A DNA stretch of 64,000 nt from assembly GCF_001488575.1 (NCBI RefSeq), contig NZ_LN831302.1, forward strand, positions 1,736,001 through 1,800,000, given 5' to 3'. The first letter of the stretch is position 1, and the number at the start of each line of letters is the position of its first letter. Below the pieces are notes generated by a model. That model saw only the letters and a list, made by a program, of their open reading frames with translations, was not told where the DNA came from and ran no database searches. Positions 5,377-44,601 of this stretch are shown piece after piece. Source of the stretch: Halobacterium hubeiense (lineage in GTDB: Archaea > Halobacteriota > Halobacteria > Halobacteriales > Halobacteriaceae). Both the position numbers and the translations under genes were made by a program.

Positions 5377-5954
5377 TGTGCGGCGGCCGCGGCACGCGCC
5401 TCGAAAGCAGCGCGGAGAAGCCGCTGTTCGAGATTTCGGGGCGACCGATGGTAGACTACGTGAAGGACGCGCTCGCGGAGAGCCGCGTTGAGACCACGCA
5501 CGCCGTCGTCTCCCCGCATGCGCCCGAGACGCGCGCGCACCTCGAAGGTGAGCTGCCCATTATCGAGACGCCGGGCGAGGGGTACGTCACGGACCTGCTG
5601 ACCGCGCTCGACACCGTGGAGACTCCCGTCTTGACCGTCGCGGCGGACCTCCCGCTGTTAGAGGGCGCCGTCGTGGACACCGTGCTGGACGCGGCGGACG
5701 GCTCCACGAGCGTCCGCGTGCCCGCCGCGCTGAAGGACGCGCTCGGCGCGAGCACGGACGAGGACGGCGCGTGGGTGCCGACGGGCGTGAACGTCGTCGC
5801 CGACGACGCGGACAGCGTGTTCCGGAGCTACGACGCGCGCCTCGCGGTGAACGTGAATCGGCGGGCGGACGCCGCGCTCGCGGAGCGTCTGCTCGCGCTG
5901 CGGACCGACGCACCGAAATCCGGCGAGGTCGTGGAGGGAGACGATGGACCCTGA
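5361..5954 (+). CDS. cobY: GTP:adenosylcobinamide-phosphate guanylyltransferase (archaeal CobY)
   Basis: It transfers GMP from GTP to adenosylcobinamide phosphate. Archaea use CobY here instead of bacterial CobU. The 197-residue protein has a nucleotidyltransferase signature at the N-terminus, LLMCGGRGTRL followed by EKPLFEISGRPM, and a later VTVAADLPLL segment placing the metal-binding aspartate. GTG at 5361 gives the expected start two residues before the core strand and overlaps cobS by 16 bases. Flanking cobS and cobD strongly support CobY over the similar MobA-type enzymes. Confidence 0.92.
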   Translation: MDALLMCGGRGTRLESSAEKPLFEISGRPMVDYVKDALAESRVETTHAVVSPHAPETRAHLEGELPIIETPGEGYVTDLLTALDTVETPVLTVAADLPLLEGAVVDTVLDAADGSTSVRVPAALKDALGASTDEDGAWVPTGVNVVADDADSVFRSYDARLAVNVNRRADAALAERLLALRTDAPKSGEVVEGDDGP

Positions 5955-6951
5955 TGCCGTCCGCGACGCCGGCCGCGTGCCCCACGGCGGCAGCGACGAC
6001 CCCGACGTGCTGGACTTCTCCGCGAACGTGAACCCCCGGACGCCGCCGGGCGTCCGCGAGGTGTACGAGGCCGCGCTCGACGACGCCGGCCGGTACCCGA
6101 ACGACGACTACCCCGACTTCCGCGACGCCGCCGCGGGATACGTGGACTGCGCGCCCGAGCGCGTCGTGCCGACGCCGGGCGGCCTCGCGGGCATCCGGCT
6201 CGCAGTCGAGACGCGCGTCGAACCCGGGGACAGCGTGCTCGTCCCGTACCCGAGCTTCGGCGAGTACGCCCGCGAGGTCGAACTGCAGGGCGCGGACCCC
6301 GCGTTCGTCCCGCACGACGAACTCCTCGACGCGGACCCGAACGGGCACGCGATGGCCGTCGTCTGCAACCCGAACAACCCCACCGGAACGCTGTACGGCG
6401 CCGACGACCTCCGCGCGTTCGCCGCGCGCTGCCGCGAGGCCGACACCGAGTTGCTCGTCGACGAGGCGTTCCTCGGATTCACCGACGAGGAATCGCTGGC
6501 GGGGACGCCGGGCGTGGTCGTCGCGCGCTCGCTCACGAAGCTGTTCGGCCTGCCCGGGCTCCGCGCCGGCTTCCTCGTGGCGACCGGCGACCGGCTGGAC
6601 AACCTGCGGACGGCGCGGCGCGCGTGGAACCTCGGGACGCCCGCGGCGGCCGTCGGCGCGCACGCGATGCGCCGAGCGGAGTTCGTCGCCGAGACCCGCG
6701 AGCGCGTCGCCAGCGAGCGCGAGCGGCTCCGAGCGGCGCTCGCCGACGACTTCGACGTGTTCGACTCGGCCGCGCCGTTCCTCCTGCTCGACGTCGGCGA
6801 CCGGGACGTGGCCGCGCTCTGCGAGGCGACCGAAGCCCGGGGCGTCGCGATTCGGGACGCGACGACGTTCCGCGGGCTGGACAGCCACGTCCGGATCGCG
6901 GTCCGCACGCCCGAGGAGAACGACCGGCTGCTGGAGGCGCTGGATGTTTGA
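5944..6951 (+). CDS. cobD: L-threonine-O-3-phosphate decarboxylase CobD
   Basis: A PLP enzyme of the class I/II aminotransferase fold, 335 residues, that produces (R)-1-amino-2-propanol O-2-phosphate for CbiB. Visible PLP-site features are CNPNNPTG at residues 141-148, VDEAFLGF with its aspartate at 173, and SLTKLFGLPGLRAG with the Schiff-base lysine at 199. The N-terminus (HGGSDDPDVLDFSANVNP) is typical of CobD. HisC is the close relative, but the overlap with cobY and cbiZ decides for CobD. The ATG lies 11 bases before the cobY stop. Confidence 0.92.
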   Translation: MDPDAVRDAGRVPHGGSDDPDVLDFSANVNPRTPPGVREVYEAALDDAGRYPNDDYPDFRDAAAGYVDCAPERVVPTPGGLAGIRLAVETRVEPGDSVLVPYPSFGEYAREVELQGADPAFVPHDELLDADPNGHAMAVVCNPNNPTGTLYGADDLRAFAARCREADTELLVDEAFLGFTDEESLAGTPGVVVARSLTKLFGLPGLRAGFLVATGDRLDNLRTARRAWNLGTPAAAVGAHAMRRAEFVAETRERVASERERLRAALADDFDVFDSAAPFLLLDVGDRDVAALCEATEARGVAIRDATTFRGLDSHVRIAVRTPEENDRLLEALDV

Positions 6952-7651
6952 CGCGGCGACGCGGGACGGCGTGCTCGAACTCGAACGCGAGCGGACGCGC
7001 TGGCTCTCCACGGGCTGGGACGGCGGCTTCGCGGCCGCCGACCGCGCGTACAACGTCACCGTCCCCGAGGGCTGGAACCCGGGCGACCTCGACGCGTACG
7101 TCGCCGACCGGCTCGCCGACGCCGGCTTCTCGCGGGCGGGCGACGAGCCGGTCCTGTTCACTGGGGTAGCACAGCGCCACGCCCGCGGCGCGCGCCGTGG
7201 GCCCGTGGAAGCAGTCGCGACCGTCGGCGTGTCGAACCCCGCGGCGCTCCCGATGGACCCCGAGGACGGTGCGCTCCCCGAGGAACCCGAAGCCGTCGCC
7301 GGGACGGTGAACGTGTTCGTCGGGACGACGCGCGCGCTGGACGACGCCGCGCTCGCGAACCTCGTCGCCGTCGCCGCGGAGGCGAAGACGGCGACGCTGC
7401 TCGAAACCGTCGGGTTCCCGGGGACGACGACGGACGCGGTGGTCGCGGCCTGCGACCCCGCGGGCGAGCCGGCGGCGTTCTCCGGGAGCGCGACCCGAGT
7501 GGGCGCCGCCGCCCGCGCCTGCGTCCGGGACGCCGTGCGGGCGAGCTACGCGAGCAGGTACGCCGACGACGACCCCCCGGAGTCGGTCGCAGCGGCTAGG
7601 CACGGCGTGCGGACGGACGTAGAAGGGGACGTGTTCGTCCCCGGCGAGTGA
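6944..7651 (+). CDS. cbiZ: Adenosylcobinamide amidohydrolase CbiZ (corrinoid salvage)
   Basis: CbiZ hydrolyses the aminopropanol arm of adenosylcobinamide, returning salvaged cobinamide to adenosylcobyric acid, which CbiB can reuse. The 235-residue protein shows the family pattern: RTRWLSTGWDGG near the N-terminus, then VGVSNPAALP, NVFVGTTRALDDAAL and a glycine-threonine rich segment ending GTTTDAVVAAC. It overlaps cobD by eight bases and ends the operon 10 bp before the convergent dabA stop. Its presence says the cell salvages incomplete corrinoids as well as making the late steps itself. Confidence 0.9.
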   Translation: MFDAATRDGVLELERERTRWLSTGWDGGFAAADRAYNVTVPEGWNPGDLDAYVADRLADAGFSRAGDEPVLFTGVAQRHARGARRGPVEAVATVGVSNPAALPMDPEDGALPEEPEAVAGTVNVFVGTTRALDDAALANLVAVAAEAKTATLLETVGFPGTTTDAVVAACDPAGEPAAFSGSATRVGAAARACVRDAVRASYASRYADDDPPESVAAARHGVRTDVEGDVFVPGE

Positions 7652-7661
7652 GGAACGCGAG

Positions 7662-10064
7662 TCAGTCGTCGGCGACGGCGGCCGCGCGCTGCGTCTCGGG
7701 TTCGAGTTCGGCTTCCGCGACGGCGGGCGTCCACGACAGGTCCTGTTCGTAGTGGAACGCGCGGTGGTCGCGGGTCGGGTCCACGACCGTCAGCGCGAGC
7801 CAGTCGTTGTCCAGAAGCACCTGCAGTTGCTCGTGCTCCGCGAGCACGCCCTCGACGCGCTTGACGGGCGCGTGGACGACCGTCGAGAGGCGCAGCGGCT
7901 GGTGGTACGGCTCGTCGGCGGCGGTCGTCAGCGACTGCAGCGGCAGACCGGTCATCAGGTCGCCGCCGTTGCCCTGGTAGACGCCGAGGTTCCCGACGGG
8001 GTTGTGCGTGACCTTCGAGCCGCTGCCATAGACGGCGTTGTCCACCGTCGAGAAGTAGTACTGGGCGTTTATCCACTGCGTGACGACCATCGGCCCGGTG
8101 AGAATCGCGGCCAGCGCGTCGCCGTCGGGGTCGGTGGCGTGGTCGTATGAGTGGAGGAACGCGCGCCCGTCGAGGTCAAGGTCGCTGGTGAGTTCGCGCG
8201 GGCCGACGACGAAGCCGGCGTTGCCGGCCAGCCCCAGTTCTGGACGGGTCTCCGCCCAGTCGCCGGCGCGGCGCTCGGTCTCGCTGACCGCGTCGCCGTC
8301 GGCGCCCAGCGATTCGGCGCGCTCGGCGGCCGCGCGCTCACGGGCGCTCGCGAGGTCCGCGCGCAACTGTTCGACGTCGTCGGCGTGGCTCGCGGGGACG
8401 TCGCCGTCGTACAGCTCGACCTCGTCGGTCGTCGTGTTGTGCTCGGCCGCGAGGAAGACGGTGTCCTCGGGGACGTCGAAGCCGCGCTCGCGCAGCGCGG
8501 CCTTCACCTCGGGGTCGCTACAGATGGCCGCGAGCACGCGGGCGTTCGGGCCGCCGGGGTTGCCGGCGCACGCGCCGCAGTCCAGACTCGACTCGTAGGG
8601 GTTGTTCGCGGTCTCGCTGGCGTGGCCGGTGAAGACGACGAGGCGACCGAACTGCTCCCAACCCATCAACTCGAAGGCGGCGGCCGCGTACTCGACGCGC
8701 TCTTCGGTCGTCAGGCCGGCGGGCAGGCCCTCGTCGGCGTGCTCGTGGTCGAGGTCGGGCTCGCAGAACTCGTGGACGTCCGGAATCGGGCCGGTAGCGG
8801 CGCCGACGAGGCCGCGGACGCGCTCGGGGACGAGCGTGCGCGCCGCGAGCGCGACGCCGTAGCCGCTCCCCGCGCTCTCGACGAACCCGTACGCCGTGGC
8901 GGCGTTGGCCTCCAGCGTCTCCACGACCTCGGTGGCCGCCTCGCGGAGGCCCGTCCAGCGGTCGTGGCTCGCGTGCGCGTCCTCGTCGGCCGGCGCCTCG
9001 GCGACGCGGTGCTGGGGTTCGACGATGGGCGGGCAGGCCTCGACGGAGACCTCGGCGTCGTAGCCCTCGTACTCCATCGGGACGCCGAAGAACCCCGCGT
9101 ACCCGTGGGTCTCGTAGTCGCCCGTCTCCTCGACGTGCCGGCGGATGACCTCCGAGCGGGTGTCGATGCAGAACACCAGTTGGGCGTCCGGGCGCCCCGA
9201 GTCCTCCTCGCCCTCCGCGAGCGACTCGCTCTCGGCCGCGACGGCGTCCACGAGGTCCTCGCGGTAGGTCGCTTCCCACGCGCGCAGGAACGCCGCGGCG
9301 ATTTCGTCCGCAGAGTCCGGCTCACCGGGGTCGTCGTCCGGTGAGAGGTCGGCGTCGAGGGCGTCCAGCACCGCCAGCCGCGCCGCCAAGTAGCCCGCCA
9401 GCGAAATCGGGTGCGCGGACTGCCACTCGCCGCCGTCCTCGACGCGCCGATTGACGAACCACGTCCACCCCGGGAGTGCGGCCAACTCCTCCTCGAAGAT
9501 GGCCTCCCACTCGCCCTCCGGGTACGGTTCGAGGGCCGTCGCGACGGCGTCGGTCGGCTCCTCGGGAAGGTCGGCGGCGACGCCCGCGTCCGGAATCTCG
9601 TCGTCGTGGGCGGCGACCTCGCGGAACGCGGCGTAGAAGCCGGCCTCGCGGTTCGGCATCGACCAGTGGGCGCTCCCCTCGTCGAGGAACGCCGACAGCC
9701 ACTTCGAGAGCACGCGGTCGGCGTGCTCGGTGGCGTCGTCCGCGTCGCCCTCCGCGGGGTCGGCCGCGTCGGCTAGCTGGTCGAGCAGCACTTCGGGGGC
9801 GGCGTCGTAGCCGGCTTCGTCGAGTTCCGCGTCGAGGCGGTCGCGGGAAATCTGGCCCCGCTCGAGGGCCGCGCGGAACGTCTCGGCGCTCGGGTAGCCG
9901 CGGCCGCCGAGGAGCTCGGCGGCGTCCGCGACCGCCTCCTCGAAGGGCCGGTCCTCGAAGCCCGAGAGCGGGTTCGCGGTCACGAACGAGTGGACCGGCC
10001 AGAGGGAGCCGACGACGCCGGCCGCCTCCTCGATGCTGTCGCGGATTGCCGTGTCAGTGCTCAT
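7662..10064 (-). CDS. dabA: DabA-type inorganic carbon transporter subunit (DUF2309/UPF0753)
   Basis: An 800-residue cytoplasmic protein of the DUF2309 family, related to beta-carbonic anhydrases. In characterised DAB complexes DabA works with a membrane partner to convert CO2 to bicarbonate vectorially. The predicted zinc ligands are present with family spacing: Cys299 and Asp301 in FCIDTRSE, His481 in FTGHASETANNP and Cys496 in SSLDCGACAG. The N-terminal PVHSFVTANPLSGFE motif also matches. It follows dabB with an 11 bp overlap on the same strand. Function in this archaeon is inferred from the family; the intact site argues for activity. Confidence 0.88.
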   Translation of the reverse strand: MSTDTAIRDSIEEAAGVVGSLWPVHSFVTANPLSGFEDRPFEEAVADAAELLGGRGYPSAETFRAALERGQISRDRLDAELDEAGYDAAPEVLLDQLADAADPAEGDADDATEHADRVLSKWLSAFLDEGSAHWSMPNREAGFYAAFREVAAHDDEIPDAGVAADLPEEPTDAVATALEPYPEGEWEAIFEEELAALPGWTWFVNRRVEDGGEWQSAHPISLAGYLAARLAVLDALDADLSPDDDPGEPDSADEIAAAFLRAWEATYREDLVDAVAAESESLAEGEEDSGRPDAQLVFCIDTRSEVIRRHVEETGDYETHGYAGFFGVPMEYEGYDAEVSVEACPPIVEPQHRVAEAPADEDAHASHDRWTGLREAATEVVETLEANAATAYGFVESAGSGYGVALAARTLVPERVRGLVGAATGPIPDVHEFCEPDLDHEHADEGLPAGLTTEERVEYAAAAFELMGWEQFGRLVVFTGHASETANNPYESSLDCGACAGNPGGPNARVLAAICSDPEVKAALRERGFDVPEDTVFLAAEHNTTTDEVELYDGDVPASHADDVEQLRADLASARERAAAERAESLGADGDAVSETERRAGDWAETRPELGLAGNAGFVVGPRELTSDLDLDGRAFLHSYDHATDPDGDALAAILTGPMVVTQWINAQYYFSTVDNAVYGSGSKVTHNPVGNLGVYQGNGGDLMTGLPLQSLTTAADEPYHQPLRLSTVVHAPVKRVEGVLAEHEQLQVLLDNDWLALTVVDPTRDHRAFHYEQDLSWTPAVAEAELEPETQRAAAVADD

Positions 10065-11541
10065 TGTAGTCCTCCGTGTTCGTCAAGACGGTTTCGGGCG
10101 CCGGCCGGCTGGCGTTCAGCAGGGCGACGTAGAGCCGCCGGCTGCGCTCGTGGACGCCGGTCTCGATGGCGACGTAGATGACGGTGAACGCGGCGGCGAC
10201 GGCGACGTGAACGAGCGTGAGTTCGGTCGGCGCCTGTTCGACCGGGAGCAGGCCCGCGACGCCCTCGTAGACGACGGCGTAGACGAGAATTGCGGGGAAG
10301 AACACCAGCGGGACGGCGGCGTAGCGCGCGAGCGCCGACAGCGACGTGTGTCCGACCGCGTCGCGGGCGGCGTGCAGCGTGGTGAACACCACGAAGAACG
10401 TCAACAGCAGGCCGCTGTCGGCGTGCGTCCCCTTCCCGGTCAGCACCGCGAACAGCGCGCCGCCGGCGAGTCCGGTCAGCAGCGTCACGACGCCGCCGGC
10501 GACGCTCGGGAGGCCGCCCGCGGTGTGCGGGGTGCCGTCGCTCGGGCTGGCGCGTTCGACCTGTCCCCCGGAGCCGAGGAACTGGTAGGCCTTGTAGAAG
10601 CCGTGGAGAATCAGGTGCGTGACGGCGGCGGCGAAGAAGCCCAGGCCCGCCTGCATTATCATGAAGCCCATCTGCCCGACGGTCGAGCAGCCGAGCTTGC
10701 TCTTGACGTCGGTCTGCACGGACTTCAACAGCTTCCCGCCCGCGGCGCTGACTGCGCCGACCGCGACCACCGCGAGCATCAGCGTGGCGTCGGCGGTGAC
10801 GACGGGCGCGAAGCGCGCCAGCAGGATGCCGCCGGCGTTGACGAAGCCGGCGTGCATCAGCGCCGACGCCGGGGTCGGCGCGGTCATCGAGGACAGCAGC
10901 CACGTGTGGAACGGGACGAGCGCGGACTGAATCATCGCCGCGAGCACGAGCGCGCCCGCCGCGAGGAGCCAGACGGGGCCGCCGAGCGCGTCGGCGTTCG
11001 CGGCGATTCCCGAAATCGTCGTCGCGCCGGTCGTCCACCACAGCGCGGTCAGCGCGACGGCGAGCAGGCCGCTGCTGGCGAGGAAGTGCTTGCGGGCGAC
11101 CGCGGCGGCGGCGCTCGCCTGGTCCCAGCCGCCGACGACGCCGATTAGCTCGGCCATCAGCAGGCCCATCGCCAGCCAGAGGCCCGCGAACAGCGCGAAG
11201 TGGTCGGCGGCGACCAGCGCCATCACGGCGAGCGTGAACCCGAACGTGTTGGCGAAGAACGCCGTCTCGTGGGCGCTCCCGGCGAGGTAGCGCCGCGAGT
11301 AGCTGTGGACGACGCCGCTGAAGAACGTGACGACGACCCACATCAGGACGGTCAGGCCGTCGACGGCGACCACGCCGCCGAGCTCCCACGCGCCCGCGGT
11401 TCGCGCTCGGACGGCGAGGGCGCCGACGCTCGCGGCGAACAGCGCCCACACGAGCCACGTGAGTGCGGCGGGCACGAGCGGCGACTCCGCCGCCGTGTCC
11501 GGGAGTGGTCCGACCGTCGTCGTTGCGTCCTGTCCCGACAT
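10054..11541 (-). CDS. dabB: DabB-type proton-conducting membrane subunit (NuoL/MrpA-like)
   Basis: A 495-residue polytopic membrane protein of the NADH-quinone oxidoreductase subunit 5 / antiporter superfamily, with about 13-14 hydrophobic segments. The core contains TPASALMHAGFVNAGG and KSKLGCSTVGQMGFM, matching the lysine/histidine-bearing broken helices that carry protons in NuoL. No other complex I or Mrp subunit is nearby, and it is translationally coupled to dabA, so it is best read as DabB, which uses the ion gradient to drive bicarbonate formation. ATG at 11541 is chosen; an upstream in-frame start at 11607 would add 22 basic residues not typical of the family. Confidence 0.86.
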   Translation of the reverse strand: MSGQDATTTVGPLPDTAAESPLVPAALTWLVWALFAASVGALAVRARTAGAWELGGVVAVDGLTVLMWVVVTFFSGVVHSYSRRYLAGSAHETAFFANTFGFTLAVMALVAADHFALFAGLWLAMGLLMAELIGVVGGWDQASAAAAVARKHFLASSGLLAVALTALWWTTGATTISGIAANADALGGPVWLLAAGALVLAAMIQSALVPFHTWLLSSMTAPTPASALMHAGFVNAGGILLARFAPVVTADATLMLAVVAVGAVSAAGGKLLKSVQTDVKSKLGCSTVGQMGFMIMQAGLGFFAAAVTHLILHGFYKAYQFLGSGGQVERASPSDGTPHTAGGLPSVAGGVVTLLTGLAGGALFAVLTGKGTHADSGLLLTFFVVFTTLHAARDAVGHTSLSALARYAAVPLVFFPAILVYAVVYEGVAGLLPVEQAPTELTLVHVAVAAAFTVIYVAIETGVHERSRRLYVALLNASRPAPETVLTNTEDYNEH

Positions 11542-11599: not shown

Positions 11600-11700
11600 C
11601 TACGCACACTAGAGAACGGTTCGTCTATTAAACTTGGCTATTATCACAAATCGTTCGCAGAAAGTTGATTATAGAACGTTATGTTTATCGGGCGCGTGCG
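11600..11700 (-). promoter_or_regulatory. Probable dabBA promoter region
   Basis: An AT-rich patch in otherwise GC-rich DNA upstream of dabB. On the minus strand a TATA-like GTTTAATAG lies at 11625-11633, about 85 bp before the chosen ATG, so initiation near 11600 would leave a 5' leader of about 60 bases. Further upstream on the same strand, AACGTTCTATAATC and CGATTTGTGATAATAG provide additional AT-rich elements. The Lrp-type gene ends at 11769, so this is the only space for regulation of the dab pair. Confidence 0.4.
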
Positions 11701-11768: not shown

Positions 11769-12242
11769 TCAGCGGTCGGTCTCGGGGTCGAAGCCGCCGA
11801 AGGGCGTCGTCTCGTGGCTCCGCACGAGCACCTCGTCGGCGACCGTCAACCCCATGTCGAGGAGCTCCTGTGCGACCGACGTGATGTCGCCGTCCGACTC
11901 GCCGACGGCCGTCACGAGGAGGTTCTCGTCCCCGGTGACCAGCTCCTGCACGGAGACCACGCCGTCGATGGCCAGTATCTCGGGGATGAGTTCGCCGCGC
12001 TCGGGTATCGAGGCGGTGCAGTAGAGCAACATCCGCAGCGGGTACCCCGACTGCTGGTAGTCCACGCTCGCGCTGTACCCCTTGACGACGCCGCTCTCCT
12101 CCAGTCGCTGGATGCGCTTGCGGACGGTGCTGTCCGAGGTGCCGGTTCGCTCTGCGATGTCTCCCGACGACATGTTCCGCGCGTCCTCCTGGAGCGCGTA
12201 CAGGATGGCGCGATCCACGTCGTCGATGTCCTCGTCGGTCAT
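11769..12242 (-). CDS. Lrp/AsnC-family transcriptional regulator
   Basis: A 157-residue regulator with an N-terminal winged helix-turn-helix (DDVDRAILYALQEDAR to RKRIQRLEESGVVKGY, about residues 7-62) and a C-terminal RAM/AsnC effector domain with the ferredoxin-like pattern around LLYCTASIPERGELIP and ENLLVTAVG. Start is ATG at 12242; a longer frame to 12320 lacks domain support. It sits just upstream of and in the same direction as dabBA, so it may respond to carbon or amino-acid status and control them, but proximity is the only evidence. Lrp proteins often autoregulate. Confidence 0.88.
   Translation of the reverse strand: MTDEDIDDVDRAILYALQEDARNMSSGDIAERTGTSDSTVRKRIQRLEESGVVKGYSASVDYQQSGYPLRMLLYCTASIPERGELIPEILAIDGVVSVQELVTGDENLLVTAVGESDGDITSVAQELLDMGLTVADEVLVRSHETTPFGGFDPETDR

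Positions 12243-42348: not shown

Positions 42349-44601
<2,253 letters not shown>

Follow-up and report, generated by a model that had tools for sequence, protein, structure and literature searches.

The dabA, dabB and dabR genes considered here lie in a window of 64,000 nucleotides of Halobacterium hubeiense DNA (assembly GCF_001488575.1, contig NZ_LN831302.1, positions 1,736,001 to 1,800,000 of the forward strand); coordinates below are those of the window. All three genes are on the minus strand and are read in the order Lrp/AsnC-type gene, dabB, dabA. dabA (7662-10064) starts at an ATG and encodes the 800-residue catalytic subunit of a DAB-type inorganic carbon pump, with a β-carbonic anhydrase-like Zn2+ site and a membrane "finger". 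dabB (10054-11541; 495 residues from its ATG, with a further upstream GTG that extends the open frame to 11607) encodes a NuoL-like proton-conducting membrane subunit. By their open reading frame coordinates the two genes overlap by 11 bp. Just upstream of dabB on the same strand, beyond the segment covered by an earlier note on this DNA, is an lrp-type regulator gene, here named dabR (11769-12242; 157 residues from an ATG, with a GTG-started open reading frame to 12320). A predicted 43-bp operator surrounds the dabB core promoter (11614-11656).

The DabA protein matches the Pfam family PF10070 with 870.8 bits against a cut-off of 25, over model positions 1-747, the full length, and it matches the DabA2 chain of the solved DAB2 structure (9rd0_A) at E 7.6e-108. 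It is the only DabA copy in its genome. DabB belongs to the proton-antiporter families PF00361 (120.8 bits) and PF00662, and its Protein Data Bank matches include NuoL-type chains and DabB2 (9rd0_B, E 2.6e-33). Mapping to DabA2 and DabB2 showed that the functional residues are present. The zinc ligands C351, H524 and C539 of DabA2 correspond to C299, H481 and C496 in the window protein, the Asp-Arg dyad D353/R355 to D301/R303, and the finger glutamate E444 to E396. These residues and the alanine and phenylalanine of the CO2 tunnel are invariant in the DabA sequences compared, 42 haloarchaeal and 11 bacterial. The positions of DabA2 Leu658 and His585/Asp590 are likewise kept in the window protein and throughout both sets. 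The DabB2 proton-path residues S256, H260, K310, S316, H339, H343 and K347 are identical in the window DabB and in 42/42 haloarchaeal sequences. Thus dabBA encodes a complete DAB/DAC (MpsAB-type) complex that, at the level of its sequence, keeps all tested catalytic and proton-path residues. The earlier note's claims of a complete pair, of zinc ligands and proton-path segments, and of overlapping genes are confirmed.

One part of the membrane subunit differs. At the DabB2 K235, D185 and R182 positions the haloarchaeal proteins have Gln, Ser/Thr/Gly and Leu/Ile/Val, so that the ion pair between transmembrane helices (TM) 5 and 7 is missing. The TM7 Lys235 is Gln in 41 of the 42 haloarchaeal sequences and Arg in one; the window residue is Gln205. 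Nine of the 11 bacterial DabB proteins have Lys/Arg at 235 and nine have Asp/Glu at 185, and a staphylococcal sequence lacks both. These residues are not defining ones for membership of the DAB/DAC family, because DAB2 alanine mutants at the three positions keep complementation, with reduced yield (PMC13144422), and because the staphylococcal protein does without the pair. The apparent absence of the pair from haloarchaeal DabB is part of what this analysis adds; studies of coupling can use these proteins as natural mutants that lack the NuoL-type ion pair. In DabA the tunnel-gate Trp656 of DabA2 is replaced by Leu (L610, window 8232-8240); among the loci checked this was seen only here and in a sister species, the other haloarchaeal sequences having Trp. 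Two other genomes have an apparently damaged DabA, split or degraded into two overlapping frames in one (G294:C3:17005-19226) and reduced to weak fragments in the other (G272).

The distribution of DabA was compared with that of carbonic anhydrase in 292 genomes of the class Halobacteria, with presence and absence transcribed from search listings and negatives obtained partly by complement. DabA is found in 187 of them, about two thirds, and β-carbonic anhydrase (PF00484) in 264. Both are found in 161 genomes, DabA only in 26, the anhydrase only in 103 and neither in two (G128 and G183); 290/292 have one or the other. Of the 13 genomes in the window's genus, seven carry DabA, all of them lacking a canonical β-carbonic anhydrase, and the six without DabA all have a strong one (Fisher 0.0006). 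Two of the DabA-positive genomes of the genus, the window's included, encode a divergent member of PF00484, matched at E about 1e-13, in which the motifs C-x-D-x-R and HxxC are present, and one DabA-negative genome has a similar protein beside the canonical enzyme. Judged from gene content, DAB and the canonical enzyme look interchangeable in this genus. This apparent exchange at the genus level is also part of what the analysis adds, and it provides matched natural strains for testing.

In other genera DabA and the canonical enzyme often occur together, at times as close neighbours. A canonical β-carbonic anhydrase gene stands near dabA, within the fetched stretch, at 17/40 plus 3/13, or 20/53, loci in several arrangements, counts that come from loci not independent of one another. 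A carbonic anhydrase-like gene lies between lrp and dabB in five loci, one of them, in Halorussus pelagicus, named carbonic anhydrase by RefSeq. In the four that are readable (L065, L068, L070 and L109) the protein keeps HxxC and has lost the Asp-Arg dyad; it is possibly a sensor or regulatory pseudo-enzyme. The frame of the fifth (L067) looks broken. Secretion of the adjacent anhydrases was considered and dropped, since those N-termini that were inspected, by eye, appear cytosolic.

In the sense of the original MpsAB naming, DabAB would be mainly a cation/proton or membrane-potential system and bicarbonate supply would be secondary. As is generally known, haloarchaea live in molar NaCl; DabB is a relative of NuoL and MrpA; and PMC13144422 reports arguments for Na+ coupling of MpsAB. 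Such a role is nonetheless improbable as the main one, given a zinc site, Asp-Arg dyad, CO2-tunnel Ala/Phe and E444 without variation in any DabA compared, the anhydrase genes at dab loci and the exclusion of DAB and canonical enzyme in the genus.

The second component of the locus is the regulator. DabR has an HTH_AsnC domain (PF13404, 50.8 bits), and its profile matches are Lrp/AsnC structures, 7fby among them. Its structural model, of moderate confidence (predicted local distance difference test, pLDDT, 70), has a helix-turn-helix (HTH) followed by a β-α-β-β-α-β, RAM-like domain and gives Foldseek matches; Pfam's separate RAM family is absent from its Pfam matches. With 51.2 bits, as against cut-offs of at least 180 for the Lrp/AsnC equivalogs, DabR reaches none of the curated NCBIfam equivalog thresholds. 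As modelled, it has a true, ordinary Lrp/AsnC fold.

The lrp gene is upstream of the dab genes and co-directional with them in 39/40 loci, where the fortieth is truncated by the end of its contig, and in 13/13 more. When the window Lrp was searched in the 292 genomes, a close orthologue was found in 183/187 DabA-positive and 1/105 DabA-negative genomes, at a threshold of E < 1e-50 set by eye in a gap from about 4e-46 to 6e-62. The exceptions are G021 and G195 (dabA at a contig edge), G205 and G272 (DabA fragmentary in both) and G128. In named GTDB genomes, 80 matches were listed, five of them distant; dabB is downstream in 75/75 orthologue loci and dabA in 73, the two loci without dabA being on short contigs. 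These loci were rejected as an independent replicate; they overlap with the first set and the same species recur. In seven loci (L048, L057, L061, L066, L069, L108 and L115) an opposite-strand amidohydrolase-type gene separates lrp from dabB and the operator stays at dabB.

The operator core, GAAC-N35-GTTC on the minus strand, has a fixed spacing and encloses a TATA-box-like TTTAATA (11626-11632, minus), which was read from the sequence and is conserved in position in the consensus, cGAAC.attTGttagtAtagaaggaTtTAAtAacCa.tctGTTC. Upstream of dabB, 47/54 haloarchaeal loci have a GAAC whose first base is 39 bp before that of a GTTC; 200 dinucleotide shuffles gave 0.3 such loci on average and never more than 2. 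One locus with a cut upstream region (L043) was left out of the count, and some of the seven misses are off by one base or by one base of spacing. A third, upstream half-site, ATAACGTTCTATAATC (11667-11682, minus), has its GTTC 21 bp before the core; the 47 loci with the core gave 33 counts of a third GTTC at offset -21 or -22. In the 64 kb the window core, at 50 bits, is the only position weight matrix match of at least 9 bits.

A degenerate operator pattern with no more than one mismatch was then sought in 194 genomes (129 DabA-positive and 65 DabA-negative). It gave 125 sites in 115 genomes, of which 109, in 108 genomes, are at dab loci; the reversed pattern gave six matches. Of the 16 sites elsewhere, two are perfect (G021 and G025, whose dabA position is not listed); the remaining 14 each carry a single mismatch and include four in DabA-negative genomes. 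One genome (G049) has a second genuine-looking site beside a second lrp copy. The operator is thus nearly private to dabB, and DabR is predicted to be a one-operon regulator. Control of the adjacent carbonic anhydrase genes by DabR was considered and rejected; the operator was not found at them, and dab loci have no other matrix match above 17.3 bits. One further DAB locus with a 72% DabR orthologue and no recognisable operator (L217) is on a contig titled "uncultured proteobacterium", maybe a mislabelled bin.

The upstream Lrp might instead be a general amino-acid regulator that merely happens to be located there, with the 43-bp element representing a conserved core promoter only. The fold of DabR is indeed ordinary and these genomes commonly have Lrp paralogues, but the orthologue tracks dabA, the half-sites at fixed spacing exceed what a TATA box alone would conserve, and 109 of the 125 pattern matches are at dab loci, which together make this very improbable. 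By this comparative evidence DabR is co-inherited with dabA and very probably controls dabBA, in keeping with the Lrp regulator that the earlier note had named. A regulator-operator pair so sharply defined allows the timing and purpose of DAB use to be approached directly.

What the bicarbonate is for can be approached from the rest of the genome. The earlier note saw no carbon-fixation gene, and no RuBisCO (PF00016) match was found in the whole genome; phosphoenolpyruvate (PEP) carboxylase is present. Because of this combination, the role that we consider likeliest for the window DAB is to supply anaplerotic reactions with bicarbonate, in line with the anaplerotic or biosynthetic role that the note had proposed. 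That the pump serves RuBisCO in a form III/AMP-type pathway, the window genome being a relic, is hardly credible: RuBisCO is found in 105/292 class genomes, in 74/187 with DabA versus 31/105 without, a difference that is not significant (p 0.10), 113/187 DabA-positive genomes, the window's included, have no RuBisCO match, and the window DAB residues are intact and not decaying. A link of DAB to RuBisCO was therefore rejected. The note was wrong that known DAB complexes serve autotrophs, which is contradicted by the MpsAB of Staphylococcus aureus (PMC6689103), by the DACs of heterotrophic Halobacteria (PMC10880623) and by the dabAB of Haloferax (PMC8305020), as well as by the lack of RuBisCO tracking. 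The DAB-bearing haloarchaea, 187 of the 292 genomes, are not known as autotrophs, and their pumps need a non-autotrophic explanation.

A malic enzyme that the earlier note had placed at 42 kb, in the same carbon node, does exist, as a malic enzyme-phosphotransacetylase fusion (42352-44601). It is about 31 kb from the dab genes, we take it to be of the decarboxylating type, and the sole operator match in the window is at dabB; no evidence for the link was found. On the other side of the dab genes and convergent to them are cobD- and cbiZ-like cobalamin genes (5944-7651).

Taken as a whole, dabR-dabB-dabA is probably a module with which a heterotrophic haloarchaeon takes up inorganic carbon; it would work as follows. 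Protons would run down the membrane gradient through DabB and, by analogy with the DAB2 structure, the flow would act via the DabA finger helix to drive one-way hydration of CO2 to HCO3- at the DabA zinc site. At ambient CO2 the bicarbonate would feed carboxylases that use HCO3-, PEP carboxylase among them. DabR is predicted, with strong support from comparative genomics, to bind the half-sites straddling the dabB TATA box and to control essentially one operon. Repression lifted when inorganic carbon is short would be the favoured direction, because half-sites stand between the TATA box and the transcription start, which the TATA box predicts to be at about 11600-11605.

Several observations weigh against this explanation. 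First, DAB is maybe not the sole bicarbonate source of the host. Its genome encodes the divergent β-carbonic anhydrase mentioned above (L087, G000:C1:783036-783467) and a γ-carbonic anhydrase-like protein (L130) with 135 bits, below the 250-bit NCBIfam cut-off; the idea of a host without carbonic anhydrase was therefore rejected. Second, 161/187 DabA-positive genomes also have a PF00484 protein. The exclusion over the class is p 6.8e-5 across genomes and only p 0.06 when stratified by genus, a test whose strata were typed in manually and which was confined to genera that vary in both traits. Since the stratified exclusion is weak, most of the class-wide signal comes from the window's own genus, and the claim was dropped beyond it. 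Third, Na+ coupling, as argued for MpsAB, may apply here as well. Fourth, G128 has a DabR orthologue (69% identity) and neither DabA nor a PF00484 protein.

In G128 an operator-like site, a NarK-like major facilitator superfamily gene, a Usp gene and DabR (L096, 6515-9087) lie beside cooS/cooC-like genes of anaerobic CO dehydrogenase. The site, at 30.9 bits with a degenerate left half-site, precedes the NarK-like gene. In this one case DabR may have been re-used for an inorganic-carbon permease; alternatively, DabR may answer a different signal, such as redox or nitrogen. A bolder idea, which we hold to be rather unlikely, is that DabR is an inorganic-carbon-responsive, single-target switch of the Lrp family, possibly the first such in archaea, with three half-sites clamping the dabB promoter. 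If DabR did respond in this way, its swap onto another operon in G128 would point to an unrecognised inorganic-carbon permease.

The window pump belongs to a known family, already annotated in haloarchaea, and is ordinary within it. HVO_2410/HVO_2411 of Haloferax volcanii, a homologous haloarchaeal pair, were listed in 2021 as dabAB, a predicted CO2 transporter; this is a prediction only, and the accessible parts of that report mention neither regulator nor operator (PMC8305020). DACs in the heterotrophic class Halobacteria were noted in a 2024 review (PMC10880623). No published account of a DabR-type regulator of dab was found in the literature searched, which did not cover subscription papers ("dabA" in PMC10067837 is a place name, not a gene), and the dabR gene with its conserved DNA control site is seemingly undescribed.

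The two-subunit architecture is that of the DAB2/DAC of Halothiobacillus neapolitanus (DabA2-DabB2; PDB 9rd0, 9rd8 and 9rd9; PMC13144422), and the window proteins have its zinc and Asp-Arg site, finger Glu, Leu658 and DabB proton-path Ser/His/Lys. Unlike DAB2, the window pair is found in a heterotroph without a RuBisCO match and, with the other haloarchaeal pairs, lacks the TM7 Lys235 and the TM5 Arg182/Asp185. The MpsAB of Staphylococcus, from a different phylum, is likewise a DAB homologue in a non-autotroph and is interchangeable with carbonic anhydrase (PMC6689103, PMC8552792); one staphylococcal plasmid copy, in which the TM7 Lys is missing too, has no Lrp-type gene annotated alongside. 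The regulatory gene beside the pair also differs from that of bacterial dabBA. In 8/11 bacterial records viewed, comparators that were drawn from plasmids, a divergent LysR gene is right upstream of dabB, in place of the Lrp-type gene of the window. DabR shares its HTH and RAM-like domain with archaeal Lrp/AsnC (feast/famine) regulators such as PH0140 (7fby), a halophilic Lrp (8q90) and Halobacterium Lrp and LrpA1 (PMC2894021). Unlike those regulators, DabR is predicted to have a single target, dabBA.

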